The notes beneath the pieces were generated by a model that saw nothing but the letters and a program-made list of their open reading frames with translations, did no database searches and had not been told where the DNA came from. Shown in pieces: positions 21,575 through 60,654 of a stretch of 64,000 bases of DNA (the first letter of the stretch is position 1; each line of letters begins with the position of its first letter). The stretch is from Rhodoligotrophos sp. CJ14 (lineage in GTDB: Bacteria > Pseudomonadota > Alphaproteobacteria > Rhizobiales > Im1), in assembly GCF_038811545.1 (NCBI RefSeq), contig NZ_CP133319.1:4228001-4292000 (forward strand), written 5' to 3'. Made by a program: the position numbers and the translations under genes.

Positions 21575-21589
21575 GAACAAAACAAGAAC
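21575..21589 (+). promoter_or_regulatory. Candidate LexA (SOS) box GAAC-N7-GAAC
   Basis: GAAC at 21575-21578, spacer AAAACAA, GAAC at 21586-21589; read on the other strand this is GTTC-N7-GTTC, the LexA site established in Rhizobium, Rhodobacter and other alphaproteobacteria. It ends 17 bases before the ATG of the radical SAM gene. A weak promoter can be drawn with TTGCAC (21547-21552) and TATGTG (21570-21575), which the box would overlap, as expected for repression. Both downstream genes are DNA-repair related, which supports the call. Confidence 0.7.
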
Positions 21590-21606
21590 AGTCCACGGAC
21601 TTGGCT

Positions 21607-22842
21607 ATGCCACGCACCCTTTTGCAGAAGCTGGAAATCCTGGCCGACGCCGCGAAATACGATGCCTCCTGTGTGTCTTCTGGAGGTGTTAAGCGTAACG
21701 CAGGCAAGGGGCTCGGGTCGGTAACGGGAGAAGGAATTTGTCACGCTTTCACCCCTGATGGCCGTTGCGTGTCTCTGCTGAAAATCCTCCTCACCAACTT
21801 CTGCAGATATGATTGCGTCTATTGTGTCAGCCGCCGCTCGAGCAACGTGCCGCGCGCGCGCTTCACGGTTGAGGAGGTGGTGGCCCTCACGCTCGATCTC
21901 TACCGGCGCAATTGCATCGAAGGCTTGTTCCTGTCCTCCGGCATCGCCCGTTCGGCCGACGAGACCATGGCCGATCTGGTCAGGGTGGCAAGAGTGCTGC
22001 GGGAAGAGCATGACTTCCATGGTTATATCCATCTGAAGACGATACCTGGCGCCGGCGCCGAACTTCTGGCTGAGGCCGGACGCCACGCCGATCGTCTGTC
22101 CATGAATGTCGAACTGCCCGCTGAAGCCTCTCTTGCAGAGCTCGCCCCGGAAAAATCGATCCGCGACATCAAGCGAGGCCTCGCCCGCACCCGAACCAAT
22201 ATTGAGGCTGCGGCAGAGAAATCCCTGACAGGAAGGACCAAGACCCAGCCCTATGCCCCTGCTGGCCAGAGCACTCAAATGGTGATTGGCGCTGATCAGT
22301 CATCGGACTTCGAGATCCTGCAGAAGAGCGCCGAGCTTTACGGGGCCTACGCGCTTCAGCGCGTCTATTATTCGGCCTTCAGCCCCACCGGCCATGTTTC
22401 ACAGCACCTGCCGCCAAAGCCTGTCCCGCTGATGCGGGAGCACCGGCTCTATCAGGCTGATTGGCTGCTGCGCTTCTATGGCTTTTCACTGGCAGAGCTC
22501 GAAAGCGCCTTGCCAGCCGGCATGCTCGATCTTTCCATAGACCCTAAGCTTGCCTGGGCGCTCGCCCACCGTGGCGGCTTCCCGGTGGATGTGAACAAGG
22601 CGAGCCGCGAAATGCTCCTGCGTGTGCCAGGGCTTGGGACCCGCGCGGTGGACCGTATCATCACGGCTCGCCGGCATGGGGCGCTGCGTCTTGCCGATCT
22701 CGGGCGCCTCACCAGCTCGGTTGCACGTATCAGGCCGTTCATAGTCACGCCCGACTGGCAGCCTAGCCGGCTCTTGGACGATGGACATCTGCGCCGGCGG
22801 CTCACGCGCAAGCCCGAGCAGTTGGCGTTGGCGCTGGGCTAA
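21607..22842 (+). CDS. Putative DNA modification/repair radical SAM protein
   Basis: Radical SAM enzyme (411 aa) of the family that co-occurs with UdgX. The [4Fe-4S]/SAM motif CxxxCxxC is Cys66, Cys70, Cys73 in NFCRYDCVYC. A GEGICHAFTPDGRC segment precedes it, and a helix-hairpin-helix-like DNA-binding element lies at about 328-355 (VDVNKASREMLLRVPGLG). The TTG six bases upstream is an alternative start; neither has a strong Shine-Dalgarno sequence. The downstream gene begins within its stop codon (TAATG). The reaction is unknown in the literature I know; a role in processing damaged or modified bases is inferred from the partner, the HhH and the SOS box. Confidence 0.9.
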   Translation: MPRTLLQKLEILADAAKYDASCVSSGGVKRNAGKGLGSVTGEGICHAFTPDGRCVSLLKILLTNFCRYDCVYCVSRRSSNVPRARFTVEEVVALTLDLYRRNCIEGLFLSSGIARSADETMADLVRVARVLREEHDFHGYIHLKTIPGAGAELLAEAGRHADRLSMNVELPAEASLAELAPEKSIRDIKRGLARTRTNIEAAAEKSLTGRTKTQPYAPAGQSTQMVIGADQSSDFEILQKSAELYGAYALQRVYYSAFSPTGHVSQHLPPKPVPLMREHRLYQADWLLRFYGFSLAELESALPAGMLDLSIDPKLAWALAHRGGFPVDVNKASREMLLRVPGLGTRAVDRIITARRHGALRLADLGRLTSSVARIRPFIVTPDWQPSRLLDDGHLRRRLTRKPEQLALALG

Positions 22843-24266
22843 TGATGCAGACGGTTTATCTTCCCGGGGATTGTAGCCAGGAGCAGTTCCGCGAGGTAGC
22901 CCGGCAATGCCTCGCCCAGGAGCTCTGCCCTGATCGGGTGCTCTTCGTGGAGGGGAAAACCGGGTCTCTGTTCGAGATGACGAACAGCGTGGAGGCTCCC
23001 AGGATCACCGTTCCTCGTCTCTATCAGGAGCTTTTGTCGAAAATCCTCTGCCACACCGCCGAAGATCGCTTTGCGCTCCTCTATCGCTTGCTTTGGCGGA
23101 TCGCCCATGGGGAACGACAGGTGCTGGAGCGCTTTTCAGACCCTGATGTCAGACAAGCCATGCTCTATGCCCGGGCGGTGCAGCGCGATGCCTATCGCAT
23201 GCGCGCCTTCGTGCGCTTCAGCGAGAAAGAGATTGATGACCGCACGCTGTTCGTTGCCTGGTTTGAACCGCAATTCCGCGTGCTGTCTTTATCCGCGCCC
23301 TTCTTCATCGACCGGTTCACCAATATGGACTGGCTGATTGCCACACCGCACGGCACCATGGCCTGGCGAGACGGTGAACTGAGCTTTGGCCCTCCCGGAC
23401 CCCGGCCGCGCGAGGATGGCGACCCAGTTTTGGACGAGCTGTGGACCACCTATTATCGGGTGACCTTCAACCCGGCCCGTCTCAGGGTAAAGGCCATGGT
23501 GGCGCAAATGCCCAAACGCCATTGGCCAACTTTGCCGGAGACAGCGCAAATGCCTGATCTCGTGCGTATGGCCAAGCCTCTGGCAGAGGCAATGGCTGCC
23601 CGACCGCCCGATACACCTCCCAAATTCGCCGACAGTCTGGCGCGGCGCCCTCAACCGAGCAGACCCGAACCGGGTGAACCGCTGGAAATCCTGCGCAGCC
23701 AGGCAGAGGCCTGCACCCTTTGTCCTCTTCACGGGCCCGCAACCCAGACGGTCTTCGGGGAGGGCCCGGCCAATGCCGAGATCATGTTCGTGGGCGAGCA
23801 GCCGGGTGACCAGGAGGATCTCGCGGGCAGGCCCTTCGTCGGACCGGCAGGTCAGGTCTTCAACCGCGCTTTGGCGGAGGTGGGGATCGATCGCAGCAGC
23901 GTCTATGTCACCAATGCCGTGAAGCATTTCAAGTTTGAGCCGCGGGGGAAGCGTCGGCTGCATAGCAAGCCGGCGGCGGCCGAAGTGCATGCTTGCCGCT
24001 TCTGGCTGGATCGGGAGCTTGCCCTTATTCAACCGAAGCTGATCGTGGCTTTGGGGGCAACCGCAGCGCTGGGGGTGATGGGCCGCGCAGTCGCGGTCAC
24101 AAAGGAGCGCGGGCGTATTCTTGAGATCGGCAGCCTGCGGGTTCTGGTGACGGTACACCCGTCATATCTGCTGCGGTTGCCAGATCCCGAACGGGCGAAG
24201 CTTGAATATGAGGCCTTCGTTCAAGACCTCCGCCTGGTCTCGTCCTGGTGCCAGAAAGCGGCGTGA
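22842..24266 (+). CDS. udgX: DUF4130 domain fused to UdgX uracil-DNA glycosylase/cross-linking protein
   Basis: A 474-aa two-domain protein. Residues 1 to about 255 form the DUF4130 domain (unknown function), and about 275-474 form a UDG-superfamily domain. The UDG part has motif 1 GEQPGDQED (318-326), Cys291 and Cys294 of the Fe-S site (CTLCPL), Cys385, the UdgX-specific loop KRRLH (370-374) and motif HPSYLLR near 439. In mycobacterial UdgX the histidine of the KRRIH loop forms a covalent bond to the AP site after uracil removal; His374 corresponds to it. It is coupled to the radical SAM gene, so both should be expressed together. It probably marks or repairs uracil in DNA under SOS conditions. 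Confidence 0.92.
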   Translation: MMQTVYLPGDCSQEQFREVARQCLAQELCPDRVLFVEGKTGSLFEMTNSVEAPRITVPRLYQELLSKILCHTAEDRFALLYRLLWRIAHGERQVLERFSDPDVRQAMLYARAVQRDAYRMRAFVRFSEKEIDDRTLFVAWFEPQFRVLSLSAPFFIDRFTNMDWLIATPHGTMAWRDGELSFGPPGPRPREDGDPVLDELWTTYYRVTFNPARLRVKAMVAQMPKRHWPTLPETAQMPDLVRMAKPLAEAMAARPPDTPPKFADSLARRPQPSRPEPGEPLEILRSQAEACTLCPLHGPATQTVFGEGPANAEIMFVGEQPGDQEDLAGRPFVGPAGQVFNRALAEVGIDRSSVYVTNAVKHFKFEPRGKRRLHSKPAAAEVHACRFWLDRELALIQPKLIVALGATAALGVMGRAVAVTKERGRILEIGSLRVLVTVHPSYLLRLPDPERAKLEYEAFVQDLRLVSSWCQKAA

Positions 24267-25267: not shown

Positions 25268-26740
25268 TCAGGTACCGCAGAATGTCTTGAGCACCCGCTG
25301 ATGCGGCTCGGGCGGGTTTGCGTACTGCGCAAATTCCGGCTGATCTTCGAAGGGCTTCGTCAGCACCTGGAGCAGCTCTTCGAACGGCGCGTAATCCTTG
25401 CGGTCGACCGCCGCCGCAAGCGCCGCCTCCACCCGATGATTGCGCGGAATGAACATGGGATTGACCGCCCGCATCGCCTTGCGGCGGGTCTCTGCATCCT
25501 GCGGCTCGGCAGCGAGGCGCTCTCGCCAGCGCTTGGCCCACTCATCGAAGACGGCGGGATCGGCAAACAGGGCTCGGGCGCGCTCATCCTGTGCCAGGTC
25601 GGCGGATGCATCGCTGAGCGCCCGGAAGGTCAGGGTGAAGTCGGCCCCGTTCTTCGCCATGGCTGTGAGCAGATCCTGGGCGAGCGTAAGGTCATCCTCC
25701 TGTGCGGTAAACAGGCCGAGCTTGCGCCGAAGCCCTGCCTCATAGGCGGATTTGAACTGCTCGGGATAGGCATCGATCGCCTCCTGTGCCATGGCCACCG
25801 CCTTGTCCTGATCATCGGAGAACAGGGGTAACAGGCACTCTGCCAGCCTCACCAGGTTCCAATGCACGATCTGCGGCTGGTTTCCGTAAGAATAGCGTCC
25901 GTGATAATCGATTGAGCTGAACACCGTTTCGGGGTCATAGGCGTCCATGAACGCACATGGGCCATAATCGATCGTCTCGCCAGCGATCGAGGTATTATCC
26001 GTATTCAACACCCCATGGATGAAGCCGACGAGCAGCCATTGCGGCACGAGTTCGGCCTGCGCCTTGACCACCGCATCGAGCAGCGCGCGATAGGGCTGTT
26101 CCGCCTCCGCTGCTTTCGGGTAGTGCCGCGCGATCACGTAATCCGCAAGCCTGCGCAGCCCCTCACCATCCCGGCGTACGGCGAAATATTGGAACGTGCC
26201 GATCCGCACATGGCTGGCCGCCACACGGGTGAGCACCGCGCCTGGCAGGAAGCGCTCGCGGATGACGGTTTCCCCCGTGGTGACTGCCGCGAGTGAGCGC
26301 GTTGTGGGAATGCCGAATGCGGCCATGGCTTCGCTGATCAGATATTCGCGCAAAACCGGCCCCAAGGCTGCCCGGCCATCCCCTCGCCGCGAGAAGGGCG
26401 TGGGCCCGGAGCCCTTGAGCTGGATGTCGCGGCGCACGCCATCGCGGGCCACGACCTCGCCGAGAAGGATCGCGCGGCCATCACCGAGTTGTGGCACGAA
26501 CTGCCCGAACTGATGCCCCGCATAGGCCATGGCGATCGGCTCGGATCCGCTTGGAATGCGATTTCCTGCCAGCACCTCGACCCCTTCTGGGCTGCTCAGC
26601 CAATCCGGATCGAGGTTGAGCTGGCGGGCAAGTTCGCGATTCAGCCGCACGAGTTTGGGTGCGGTGACCGGCGTGGGTGCCACGCGGGCATAGAAGTGAT
26701 CCGGCAGGCGTGCATAGCTGTTATCGAAATTGAAGGTCAC
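25268..26740 (-). CDS. selO: SelO/YdiU protein adenylyltransferase (AMPylase)
   Basis: Pseudokinase-fold AMPylase of 490 aa, the normal bacterial length. Recognisable blocks are FYARVAPTPVTAPKLVRLN, MAYAGHQFGQFVPQLGDGRAILLGE, DIQLKGSGPTPFSRRGDGRAALGPVLREYLISEAM, and the active-site segment GFIHGVLNTDNTSIAGETIDYGPCAFMDAYD. The C-terminus ends VLKTFCGT, matching the conserved terminal cysteine region. SelO transfers AMP to protein hydroxyls and protects against oxidative stress in E. coli. A match to the EcfG stress-promoter consensus lies 76 bases upstream of the start. Confidence 0.95.
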   Translation of the reverse strand: MTFNFDNSYARLPDHFYARVAPTPVTAPKLVRLNRELARQLNLDPDWLSSPEGVEVLAGNRIPSGSEPIAMAYAGHQFGQFVPQLGDGRAILLGEVVARDGVRRDIQLKGSGPTPFSRRGDGRAALGPVLREYLISEAMAAFGIPTTRSLAAVTTGETVIRERFLPGAVLTRVAASHVRIGTFQYFAVRRDGEGLRRLADYVIARHYPKAAEAEQPYRALLDAVVKAQAELVPQWLLVGFIHGVLNTDNTSIAGETIDYGPCAFMDAYDPETVFSSIDYHGRYSYGNQPQIVHWNLVRLAECLLPLFSDDQDKAVAMAQEAIDAYPEQFKSAYEAGLRRKLGLFTAQEDDLTLAQDLLTAMAKNGADFTLTFRALSDASADLAQDERARALFADPAVFDEWAKRWRERLAAEPQDAETRRKAMRAVNPMFIPRNHRVEAALAAAVDRKDYAPFEELLQVLTKPFEDQPEFAQYANPPEPHQRVLKTFCGT

Positions 26741-26815
26741 GGGCTCTCGCAGATATCATCCAAAAGGGTCAGCCCGATCGGCCATGCCGCCGATGGGCGC
26801 AAGGGCTGCCAGCGG

Positions 26816-26841
26816 AACGCCAGCCTCTCAGAGATTGTTCC
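26816..26841 (-). promoter_or_regulatory. Candidate EcfG-type stress promoter for selO
   Basis: Read on the minus strand: GGAAC (26841-26837), a 17-base spacer and CGTT (26819-26816). This agrees with the alphaproteobacterial EcfG consensus GGAAC-N16/17-CGTT. The expected transcript start is about 65-70 bases before the selO ATG at 26740. A chance match cannot be excluded, but gene function (redox stress) and orientation fit. Confidence 0.5.
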
Positions 26842-26911
26842 TATATTGCGGGAAAGCAAGGCAGACCTGCTCTGCAAGGAGCACAAACCGGCTGCGGAAC
26901 CGAGGCATGCA

Positions 26912-27502
26912 ATGAATGCTGAGCAACTTCGTCTTTTGAGCGACGAGCCCGCCTGGCCTGAGGGCTTCGCCTATCAGCCGGATCTGATCTCCCCTGAGGA
27001 GGAAGCAGCCCTCATCGAGAATTTCCGCGCCTTACCGTTTAAGGCCTTCGAGTTTCAGGGCTATCGCGGCAACCGGCACGTGGTCTCTTTCGGCTTGCAT
27101 TATGACTTCAACACCAGCACCGTCCGGCCGGCAGAAGAAATTCCGGATATCCTGCTGCCGCTTCGCGCCGCCGCCGCGCGATTTGCCGAGGTCCCCGTCG
27201 AGACGATCAAGCATGTTCTCGTGACCGAATATTCGCCCGGCGCAGGCATTGGCTGGCATCGGGATCGGGCCATTTTCGAGGATGTAATAGGCATCTCGCT
27301 CGTCTCTCCTTGCCGCTTCAGGCTGAGGCGCAAGAGTGGCAACGGCTGGGAGCGAGCGGCCGTCACGCTCGCCCCGTGCTCGGCCTATTTGCTGCGAGGA
27401 CCGGTTCGCACCGCTTGGGAGCACAGCATTCCACCCATGGAGCAGCTGCGCTACTCCGTCACTTTCAGAACCCTGCGTGAGCGAGACGATCAGCCCGCAT
27501 AG
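26912..27502 (+). CDS. AlkB-like 2-oxoglutarate/Fe(II) dioxygenase
   Basis: Dioxygenase of 196 aa; the ATG at 26912 follows GAGG at good spacing and matches the length of compact AlkB homologues, while the upstream extension overlaps selO on the other strand. Fe(II) ligands are His116 and Asp118 (WHRDRA) and His171 (WEHSIPP); the 2-oxoglutarate contacts are in RYSVTFRTLR (Arg180, Arg186). AlkB proteins remove alkyl groups from DNA, RNA or protein. The N-terminal FEFQGYRGNRHVVSFG lid resembles the ALKBH group rather than E. coli AlkB itself. Its end overlaps the SGNH hydrolase tail by 13 bases (convergent). Confidence 0.9.
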   Translation: MNAEQLRLLSDEPAWPEGFAYQPDLISPEEEAALIENFRALPFKAFEFQGYRGNRHVVSFGLHYDFNTSTVRPAEEIPDILLPLRAAAARFAEVPVETIKHVLVTEYSPGAGIGWHRDRAIFEDVIGISLVSPCRFRLRRKSGNGWERAAVTLAPCSAYLLRGPVRTAWEHSIPPMEQLRYSVTFRTLRERDDQPA

Positions 27503-59242: not shown

Positions 59243-60654
59243 CCGGTTATGGCATCATGGGCGATGGTGAGCTCGGCAACGCCGGCTCGAAGCGCCTTGC
59301 CCGTTGCCCCGACCGGCAGCGCTTCCACGATGCGGATGACATCCGGCACCTTGAAGCGCTCGATCCGGGCCGCCAGCCATTCGCGCAAGACCTGCTCATT
59401 GGCCTCACAGCCCTCTCGCAGCACCACTACCGCATGCAGGGCTTCACCAAGTCTTGCATCTGCGACACCCGCACACAGCGCCGCAGCGACAGACGGGTGC
59501 CGCATCAGCCAGCCATCGATCTCGGCCGGGGCGATCTTGTTGCCGGCGCGCGAGACGATGTCTTTCGAGCGGCCGACGATCTCAACCAGGCCATCGGGCC
59601 TGACCCGGGCAAGGTCGCCCGTGCGGAAATACCCATCGTCGAAGGACTTGGCGGTGAGCACGGGATCATCCAGATAGCCGGCCATGCCGAATGGCGTGCG
59701 GATCAACAATTCACCGACACCATCGGGCAGACTGTCATCATAGCGATCGATGCGGAAGCTGACCGAGCCCGTCGGCCGCCCGATCGAGCCAAGACCTGCC
59801 ACGCGCTCTTCCGGCCTCAGGCAGAAATCGCACGATCCCGTCTCGGTGAGCCCATAGAGGTCGAACACACCCGCATTCGGAAAGGCCGCAACGAGCTTGT
59901 CGGAAAGGCCGGCCCCCAGCATTTCGCCACCCGTGAGCACCATGCGCAGCCCGGCCGCAGGTTGAAATATGTCCGCAGAAAACAGCGTGCGGAACATGGC
60001 AGGCACCCCGGCAAACACGCTGAGATCGCCAAGAACCGGCCTTAGGGTCTCGGGGGCGAACTTGCTGATGAGAATGAGGCGCGATTGGTTCATGAGGGCC
60101 AGCAGCGCGACCCAGATCCCGAAGATGAAGGTGAGCTGCAGGGGCAGCAACACCGTGTCCCGTGGTGAAAGCCCGAGAAGCTCATTGAGCACCGCGAGTT
60201 TCTTCGCAAAGGGCTCATGTCCGATCACCACCCCCTTGGGCTGTCCCGTCGAGCCCGAGGTGAAGATGATCAGCGCCGCATCGCGAAGCAGGGGCCGAAC
60301 GGGCGGCACCGCATCCGAAAGAATTGTGAGCTTGCCGTCATCGATCGCGAACCGGCAGCCGGTGCGCGAGAACACGGTGTGAACCGTTGCCTCAGCCGCA
60401 TTGCGATGCACGGGCACGGCCACGGCACCCGCACGCCAGACCGCAAGCAGTCCTGCGAGATCCGCCGGCCGATTGCCGATCCTGACCGCGACAGGCTCAT
60501 CTGCGACAACACCGGCCTCACCGAGCTGACCGGCCATTGTCTCCGCCATCCCAAGCAGGCTTGCCGCTGCGGTTGAGCCACCAGCCCCATCGGCGATCCC
60601 ATGGGGATAGGTCGCGAGCGCATCCCCGAGGAGCTTGGCGAGCGCCCGTGTCAC
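59239..60654 (-). CDS. Class I adenylate-forming CoA ligase
   Basis: A 471-aa AMP-binding ligase, shorter than usual, with the N-terminal domain reduced. A3 motif FTSGSTGQPKGV, A5 FDLYGLTETGSCDF, hinge EIVGRSKDIVSRAGNKIAPAEID, and C-terminal VGATGKALRAG. Start codon GTG in the overlap with the hydratase stop (GTGA). The final lysine motif GATGK is intact. It may activate an aromatic or short acid; the hydratase gene is its neighbour. Not obviously tied to the TRAP operon. Confidence 0.9.
   Translation of the reverse strand: MTRALAKLLGDALATYPHGIADGAGGSTAAASLLGMAETMAGQLGEAGVVADEPVAVRIGNRPADLAGLLAVWRAGAVAVPVHRNAAEATVHTVFSRTGCRFAIDDGKLTILSDAVPPVRPLLRDAALIIFTSGSTGQPKGVVIGHEPFAKKLAVLNELLGLSPRDTVLLPLQLTFIFGIWVALLALMNQSRLILISKFAPETLRPVLGDLSVFAGVPAMFRTLFSADIFQPAAGLRMVLTGGEMLGAGLSDKLVAAFPNAGVFDLYGLTETGSCDFCLRPEERVAGLGSIGRPTGSVSFRIDRYDDSLPDGVGELLIRTPFGMAGYLDDPVLTAKSFDDGYFRTGDLARVRPDGLVEIVGRSKDIVSRAGNKIAPAEIDGWLMRHPSVAAALCAGVADARLGEALHAVVVLREGCEANEQVLREWLAARIERFKVPDVIRIVEALPVGATGKALRAGVAELTIAHDAITG

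Follow-up and report, generated by a model that had tools for sequence, protein, structure and literature searches.

The 64-kb window analysed here, positions 4228001-4292000 of the one-contig 4.81 Mb genome of Rhodoligotrophos sp. CJ14 (completeness rating 100%), contains a two-gene operon that couples a radical S-adenosylmethionine (SAM) protein of the TIGR03916 family to a fusion of DUF4130 with the uracil-DNA glycosylase (UDG) UdgX. A lineage-specific LexA box lies upstream of the operon and is kept upstream of its orthologues, as is characteristic of members of an SOS regulon, and SOS (LexA) control of the operon is very likely. SOS control of this gene pair has already been described for other bacteria, as a prediction or a report, and the operon analysed here is a further instance of it; the additions are a lineage-matched switch of the operator, the accessory status of UdgX and an invariant set of cysteines and a histidine in the radical SAM protein. 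The reading favoured here, to which we give an even chance, is that of a LexA-repressed, translationally coupled DNA-damage-response operon that carries out radical repair of damaged DNA.

The operon and its gene products

The operon comprises the following features, in window coordinates:

21575..21589, + strand: LexA-type operator GAACAAAACAAGAAC, an exact pattern match to the alphaproteobacterial SOS box GAAC-N7-GAAC
21607..22842, + strand: radical SAM protein TIGR03916, with start codon ATG 21607 and stop codon TAA 22840-22842
22842..24266, + strand: DUF4130 (TIGR03915, residues 12-234) fused to UdgX (TIGR03914, residues 237-466)
23949..23963, + strand: UdgX R-loop KRRLH, residues 370-374, with R372 and H374 present in 59/59 aligned fused proteins

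The radical SAM gene is likely to start at ATG 21607, with TTG 21601 as the alternative, and 17 bases separate this ATG from the end of the box. Its stop codon overlaps the ATG of the DUF4130-UdgX gene by one base at 22842 (TAATG), so that the original prediction of a box 17 bases before a coupled pair is borne out. A promoter scan found no sigma-70 promoter overlapping the box, and a scan for terminator-like sites found these only at chance-level frequency. The best homologues of the operon in a genome scan are alphaproteobacterial. The first protein scores 531.6 bits against the TIGR03916 cut-off of 343.5; this family is presumably the same as COG4277, which agrees with its description in the literature. 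The same prediction had given the protein a helix-hairpin-helix (HhH)-like element, and a C-terminal HhH (residues 329-361, numbered from TTG 21601) matches Pfam HHH_3 with an E-value of 4.3e-5 and 24 bits, below the gathering score of 27. The second protein scores 178 bits with TIGR03915 (cut-off 112.25), 125.3 with Pfam DUF4130 (threshold 27) and 313 bits with TIGR03914 (cut-off 189.95), and its UDG domain is also recognised by Pfam. Together with the GEQPG and KRRLH motifs these matches confirm the predicted DUF4130-UdgX fusion and its KRRLH loop.

Conservation of the SOS box

The box by itself was rejected as evidence of SOS control. Exact GAAC-N7-GAAC occurs twice in the window against 1.09 expected and 81 times in the whole genome against 134 for a reversed control pattern, and because there is no excess over expectation in either, the motif alone is not significant. 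The other exact match in the window, at 60370-60384, has a GC-richer spacer and is probably a chance match.

The case for LexA control comes from the orthologues. The first set consists of the best 80 of at least 589 relatives from the genome scan and is biased to close alphaproteobacterial relatives. When searched from 300 bases upstream to 30 bases inside the match, 77 of these 80 homologous loci contain an exact box against 0.69 expected from mononucleotide shuffling, and control stretches of 330 bases at the two locus ends contain exact boxes in 0 and 1 of 80. The three loci that deviate (L021, L042 and L052) have one-mismatch matches, that of L052 in a doubtful position. In a box-centred alignment of the 69 loci with the box in coding orientation most flank positions carry less than 0.2 bits, with weak exceptions such as a T at -18 and the bases directly after the box; the spacer favours ATA at its start, and the invariance of the half-sites follows from the selection of rows by the exact motif.

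The second set is an evenly drawn sample of 299 Pseudomonadota genomes, the phylum to which all quantitative claims are confined. TIGR03916 is matched at E <= 0.001 in 66 of them, and after 13 genomes with scores below the cut-off had been dropped, the regions upstream of all 53 operons were examined, using the window for its own genome. Operons were counted as alphaproteobacterial when tagged as own genome, same order or same class (36) and as non-alphaproteobacterial when tagged as same phylum (17). All 36 alphaproteobacterial operons, including that of the window, have an exact GAAC-N7-GAAC and none has an exact CTGT-N8-ACAG, the E. coli-type box. Among the 17 non-alphaproteobacterial operons the exact E. 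coli-type box is found in 12 and the exact alphaproteobacterial box in none; a one-mismatch CTGT-N8-ACAG in three further operons brings the count to 15/17 with at most one mismatch. First-order Markov resampling gave a mean of 0.03-0.10 exact boxes per set. We take both motifs to be the known LexA boxes of their respective lineages. A box that changes in place as the LexA boxes of the lineages change therefore matches the prediction of selection for LexA control, and SOS control is very likely because the box is conserved in both sets and replaced by the E. coli-type box in most of the non-alphaproteobacterial operons. A family for which no described reaction was found thus retains a LexA-type box even where the lineages use entirely different box sequences, which strongly indicates that it takes a genuine part in the response to DNA damage. 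The check proposed along with the prediction, the presence of the box upstream of the pair in other alphaproteobacteria, thus gives a clear positive. Beyond these two sets, sites resembling CGAAC-N4-GTTCG occur in Acetoanaerobium (L134, two mismatches) and in a fecal clone (L137, one mismatch), which were scored without a shuffle control and are suggestive only; Phocaeicola (L133) has no exact match to any known LexA motif searched.

The host genome offers a partial view of the regulon. An exact box lies 86 bases upstream of lexA, and recA has merely a two-mismatch site, judged by eye. Twelve other AT-rich boxes were hand-picked from the 81 in the genome, and three of them precede SOS-type genes, namely two imuA-like genes, which at 63.4 and 36.2 bits fall under the NCBIfam cut-off of 150, and one SRAP gene (84.7 bits, cut-off 27.1). 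An imuA-like gene lies in opposite orientation to the operon, or to DUF4130 lacking the radical SAM gene, in 8/135 loci, which is a lower bound because many loci had only ~1.5 kb flanks. Three of these eight (L215-L217) were chosen for the missing radical SAM gene; they derive from three genomes of the same order (G200, G217 and G287) that have DUF4130 without it, G200 and G217 also with UdgX, and all three retain a single exact box between DUF4130 and the opposite imuA-like gene.

The published record agrees with this picture. Passages of one study place a two-gene COG1573-COG4277 operon in the predicted SOS network of Bacteroidetes and attribute to earlier reports (Erill 2016; da Rocha 2008) the SOS regulation of this uracil-glycosylase-based system in Verrucomicrobia and Alphaproteobacteria (Caulobacter) (PMC8565304). 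The gene pair is listed among the predicted SOS genes of Clostridium acetobutylicum in passages of another (PMC3828012), and an unspecified radical SAM protein is named in SOS regulons (PMC9380542; PMC7739468). Elsewhere DUF4130 is described as an enzyme with a predicted link to mutagenesis that occurs in association with uracil DNA glycosylases and with radical SAM proteins resembling SplB (PMC3765255), and a gene with the same annotation is reported to be upregulated when Acinetobacter Tol 5 is desiccated (PMC13130816). For C. crescentus, four uracil-glycosylase-family genes have no SOS box assigned in the passages shown (PMC1839093), and the main text of a Caulobacter SOS paper, which has its 47-gene table in the supplement, does not mention radical, uracil or glycosylase (PMC12700426). 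A further paper contained none of the sought terms (PMC13384398). No paper was found on the reaction of the radical SAM enzyme, nor on its N-terminal cysteines, in a search that named no cysteines and had most subscription journals outside its coverage. The induction of both genes as one unit by DNA damage, which had been predicted from the box, is thus supported by the conservation of the box and by these papers on other species.

Core and accessory parts

DUF4130 is a constant companion of the radical SAM protein. It is found above the cut-off in all 53 genomes with the radical SAM gene and in 56/299 genomes overall, a count from which a sub-cut-off DUF4130 fragment with an internal stop (G071) was dropped; in two genomes, G229 (L102) and G241 (L105), it lies ~3 kb from the radical SAM gene. 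Caulobacter vibrioides has matches to both TIGR03916 and TIGR03915. UdgX, accepted at E <= 1e-40 and with adjacency judged by eye from match positions, adjoins DUF4130 in 39/53 genomes (in G155 as a separate frame), or in 40 if a contig break in G194 is counted. The 13 genomes with no adjoining UdgX comprise 11 of the 17 non-alphaproteobacterial and two of the 36 alphaproteobacterial ones. The 80 close homologues include 68 fused DUF4130-UdgX genes, 10 with DUF4130 alone and one frame-split gene; the fusion state of one further locus (L058), in which DUF4130 is present, was lost to an ambiguous base. No UdgX was detected in the loci from Acinetobacter, Phocaeicola or Acetoanaerobium. Because DUF4130 is present in all 53 genomes and an adjoining UdgX is not, the core of the system is the radical SAM protein with DUF4130, and UdgX is an add-on that is inessential to the system. 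In a Fulvimarina metagenome-assembled genome a cytidine/deoxycytidylate-deaminase-like gene (L067:4889-5488; PF00383, 43.3 bits) separates the radical SAM gene from DUF4130-UdgX.

The UdgX half has all the hallmarks of its family. The GEQPG motif A, the KRRxH R-loop and the HPS...R motif B, as defined in passages of a study that gives the UdgX mechanism and calls its precise physiological role largely unknown (PMC10359453), are all present. E319, R372 and H374 are found in 59/59 aligned fused proteins, that of the window included, Q320 in 58/59, and H439 and R445 each in 58/59 with one gap each. By analogy, His374 is presumed to be the cross-linking residue. An AlphaFold model of the fusion has a mean predicted local distance difference test (pLDDT) score of 90.1 and a predicted template modelling score (pTM) of 0.58, which leaves the relative placement of the domains uncertain. 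In Foldseek its UdgX half matches Protein Data Bank (PDB) entries of Mycobacterium smegmatis UdgX with a template modelling (TM) score of 0.84-0.93 by target length, and the named proteins among the 50 listed matches of the fusion are all of the UDG type except a phage DNA polymerase entry (9qhs_A). The same genome encodes a second, stand-alone UdgX outside the window (L218; C1:261441-262109; 312.6 bits, GKRRLH), with no exact SOS box within the 1.5 kb examined.

The preservation of the UdgX motifs could suggest that UdgX is the working part of a base-excision-repair accessory that removes uracil which has been introduced or persists following SOS mutagenesis, with the radical SAM protein only helping. 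This lies near the published view of the COG1573-COG4277 operon, and in G200 and G217 DUF4130-UdgX survives without the radical SAM gene. It is nevertheless rather improbable in view of the 13 genomes, and of the Acinetobacter, Phocaeicola and Acetoanaerobium loci, that do without UdgX next to the core, and of the stronger conservation of the radical SAM protein, which is 58-64% identical to that of the window against 39-48% for DUF4130-UdgX.

DUF4130 more likely serves in binding than in catalysis, although this is not certain. Over 11 diverse members F123, R125, F126, P143, F155, R158, I166, R213 and P224 are invariant, and no acid, histidine or cysteine is; binding is favoured because the invariant columns are arginine, proline, isoleucine and phenylalanine. 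A catalytic His/Lys pair was considered and judged unlikely, as the window protein has Y118-R119 where relatives have H118 (58/58) and K119 (57/58), and distant members differ by eye. A sequence search gave no convincing solved structure for DUF4130 (best E-value 0.15).

The radical SAM protein

Residues of the radical SAM protein are counted from ATG 21607. The alignment holds 131 proteins including that of the window; five duplicate loci were dropped, L136 was omitted because it is nearly identical to L132, and seven late-added loci stand outside it. The CX3CX2C motif (C66, C70 and C73) is present in 131/131 proteins. N-terminal of it, C22, C45, H46 and C54 are kept in 130/131, also in the proteins from Phocaeicola, Acetoanaerobium and the fecal clone. 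The sole exception is a Gemmatirosa protein (L135:4001-5140, 37.6% identity) that lacks the three N-terminal cysteines and the histidine; a profile search found no DUF4130 within the 9 kb of this locus either, and this joint absence supports the favoured reading. Extra invariant cysteines of the kind seen in radical SAM enzymes with auxiliary iron-sulfur (Fe-S) clusters are thus present in C22, C45 and C54, with H46 beside them. Because these four residues are invariant in 130/131 proteins, they suggest a second metal site, which would most simply be an auxiliary Fe-S cluster.

In an AlphaFold model (mean pLDDT 82.4) the fold is nearest, among the structural matches listed, to that of HydE/ThiH/MiaB-type enzymes. 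The best Foldseek match among the 50 listed of 1481 is HydE (E 3.4e-8), and the others include ThiH, HydG, MiaB, BioB, PylB, RimO, viperin, TsrM and LIAS; SplB is not among these 50. HydE, HydG, MiaB, RimO, LIAS and BioB carry auxiliary clusters. An alignment profile of the protein gave no PDB match at E 0.01.

These cysteines also invite a reading as a DNA or nucleotide modification enzyme, in which a LipA/MiaB-like auxiliary cluster would act as sulfur donor and sulfur or another group would be inserted into a base under damage. Three cysteines do precede CX3CX2C, and MiaB, RimO and LIAS are among the listed structural matches. Their spacing (X22, X8) is unlike that of LipA and MiaB, LexA control favours repair over constitutive marking, and to our knowledge no modification has been detected for this system, all of which makes modification an outside prospect. 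Still less credible, and indeed very improbable, is a role for the radical SAM protein in undoing the covalent cross-link that its operon partner forms between UdgX and DNA: the genes are coupled and the fusion partner is of a DNA-cross-linking type, but the radical SAM protein and DUF4130 occur without an adjoining UdgX in 13/53 genomes.

A phage-defence or mobile-element system is the weakest candidate, with hardly any probability: radical SAM relatives occur in 158 plasmid-collection records (9 mobilizable, 7 conjugative and 142 non-mobilizable) and in 10 phage-collection records, but a defence role was rejected since PADLOC gave no match, and phage origin was rejected since a pattern scan of viral contigs, sensitive only to close relatives, detected no relative and the annotated phage-labelled record looks chromosomal. 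That record, a 240 kb Acinetobacter entry (L136; CAKLQH020000003.1), was judged likely to be host chromosome, with glyS, glyQ and aroE flanking the gene pair. Eight 'Bacteriophage sp.' fecal clones are among the phage-collection matches, L137 being the one examined. A Bacteroides phage record (L138:45-563; PQ571268.1) has a short DUF4130 gene (519 bases) at its end; since the record also has a Mor-type activator gene, the DUF4130 gene may lie in host DNA joined to the end of a Mu-like genome.

Proposed mechanism

In the favoured reading of radical repair, LexA would occupy the box that shortly precedes the start codon, and DNA damage would lead to RecA-stimulated cleavage of LexA and to the joint derepression of both genes, two steps that are strongly indicated. 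The [4Fe-4S] cluster of the CX3CX2C motif would reductively cleave SAM, as expected from the family, and the three N-terminal cysteines with the histidine would hold the second metal site. The HhH tail and DUF4130, with its invariant arginines, may keep the damaged DNA in the barrel, where the 5'-deoxyadenosyl radical would initiate repair of a candidate base or sugar lesion. Where UdgX is fused, it could remove uracil at or near the lesion, covalently trap the abasic site and shield it from breakage until repair, an activity known for other UdgX proteins. Spore photoproduct lyase is the main established case in which radical SAM chemistry repairs DNA directly.

Several observations weigh against this reading. 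Two of the 17 non-alphaproteobacterial operons (L112 and L117) have neither an exact nor a one-mismatch box, and nine of the 12 AT-rich boxes inspected in the host precede no recognised SOS gene, as judged by eye without family searches. A structural zinc site would explain the C-C-H-C pattern as well; clustering of these cysteines is not visible in the model because the region with C22, C45 and H46 (residues 22-48) has a pLDDT below 50. The structural similarity is modest, with a TM-score of at most 0.44 by query length among the 50 listed matches, and ThiH, PylB and viperin, which are not known to have an auxiliary cluster, are among them. The nearly invariant E233 of DUF4130 (>=90% over the 11 members) leaves room for catalysis, and DUF4130 may be able to act without the radical SAM enzyme because three genomes keep it without that gene, two of them with UdgX. 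The same facts also fit DNA modification, and a dedicated repair or nucleotide-modification system, as the original prediction had it, is plausible.

A wider proposal is more tentative and rather doubtful: that the operon represents an SOS-induced class of repair in which a two-cluster radical SAM enzyme, closer in mechanism to the HydE/LipA/MiaB type than to SplB, acts on a DNA lesion by radical chemistry, regularly with DUF4130 as the subunit that handles the DNA and sometimes with a covalent abasic-site trap. The family occurs in 53/299 sampled Pseudomonadota genomes, and its invariant Cys/His set offers a specific handle for testing the radical SAM chemistry.

Neighbouring gene

About 2 kb downstream of the operon, at 26489-27502, the window has an open reading frame for a 2-oxoglutarate-Fe(II) oxygenase (Pfam PF13532, 64.9 bits), which we take to be AlkB-like; the exact pattern search listed no SOS box there.

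Comparison with known systems

The operon shares with the published TIGR03916/TIGR03915/TIGR03914 pair the same families, the arrangement as two adjacent genes and LexA-type control, and differs from it by Y118-R119 in DUF4130. With M. smegmatis UdgX it has GEQPG, the KRRxH R-loop and HPS...R in common, whereas the UdgX of the window forms the C-terminal half of a fusion with DUF4130. SplB, the spore photoproduct lyase, likewise links radical SAM chemistry to DNA repair; unlike SplB, the protein described here has the extra Cys/His set and an HhH tail. Enzymes of the LipA/MiaB type have an N-terminal three-cysteine auxiliary cluster and resemble the window protein in the three cysteines N-terminal of CX3CX2C, but the latter has a different cysteine spacing and an additional invariant histidine.

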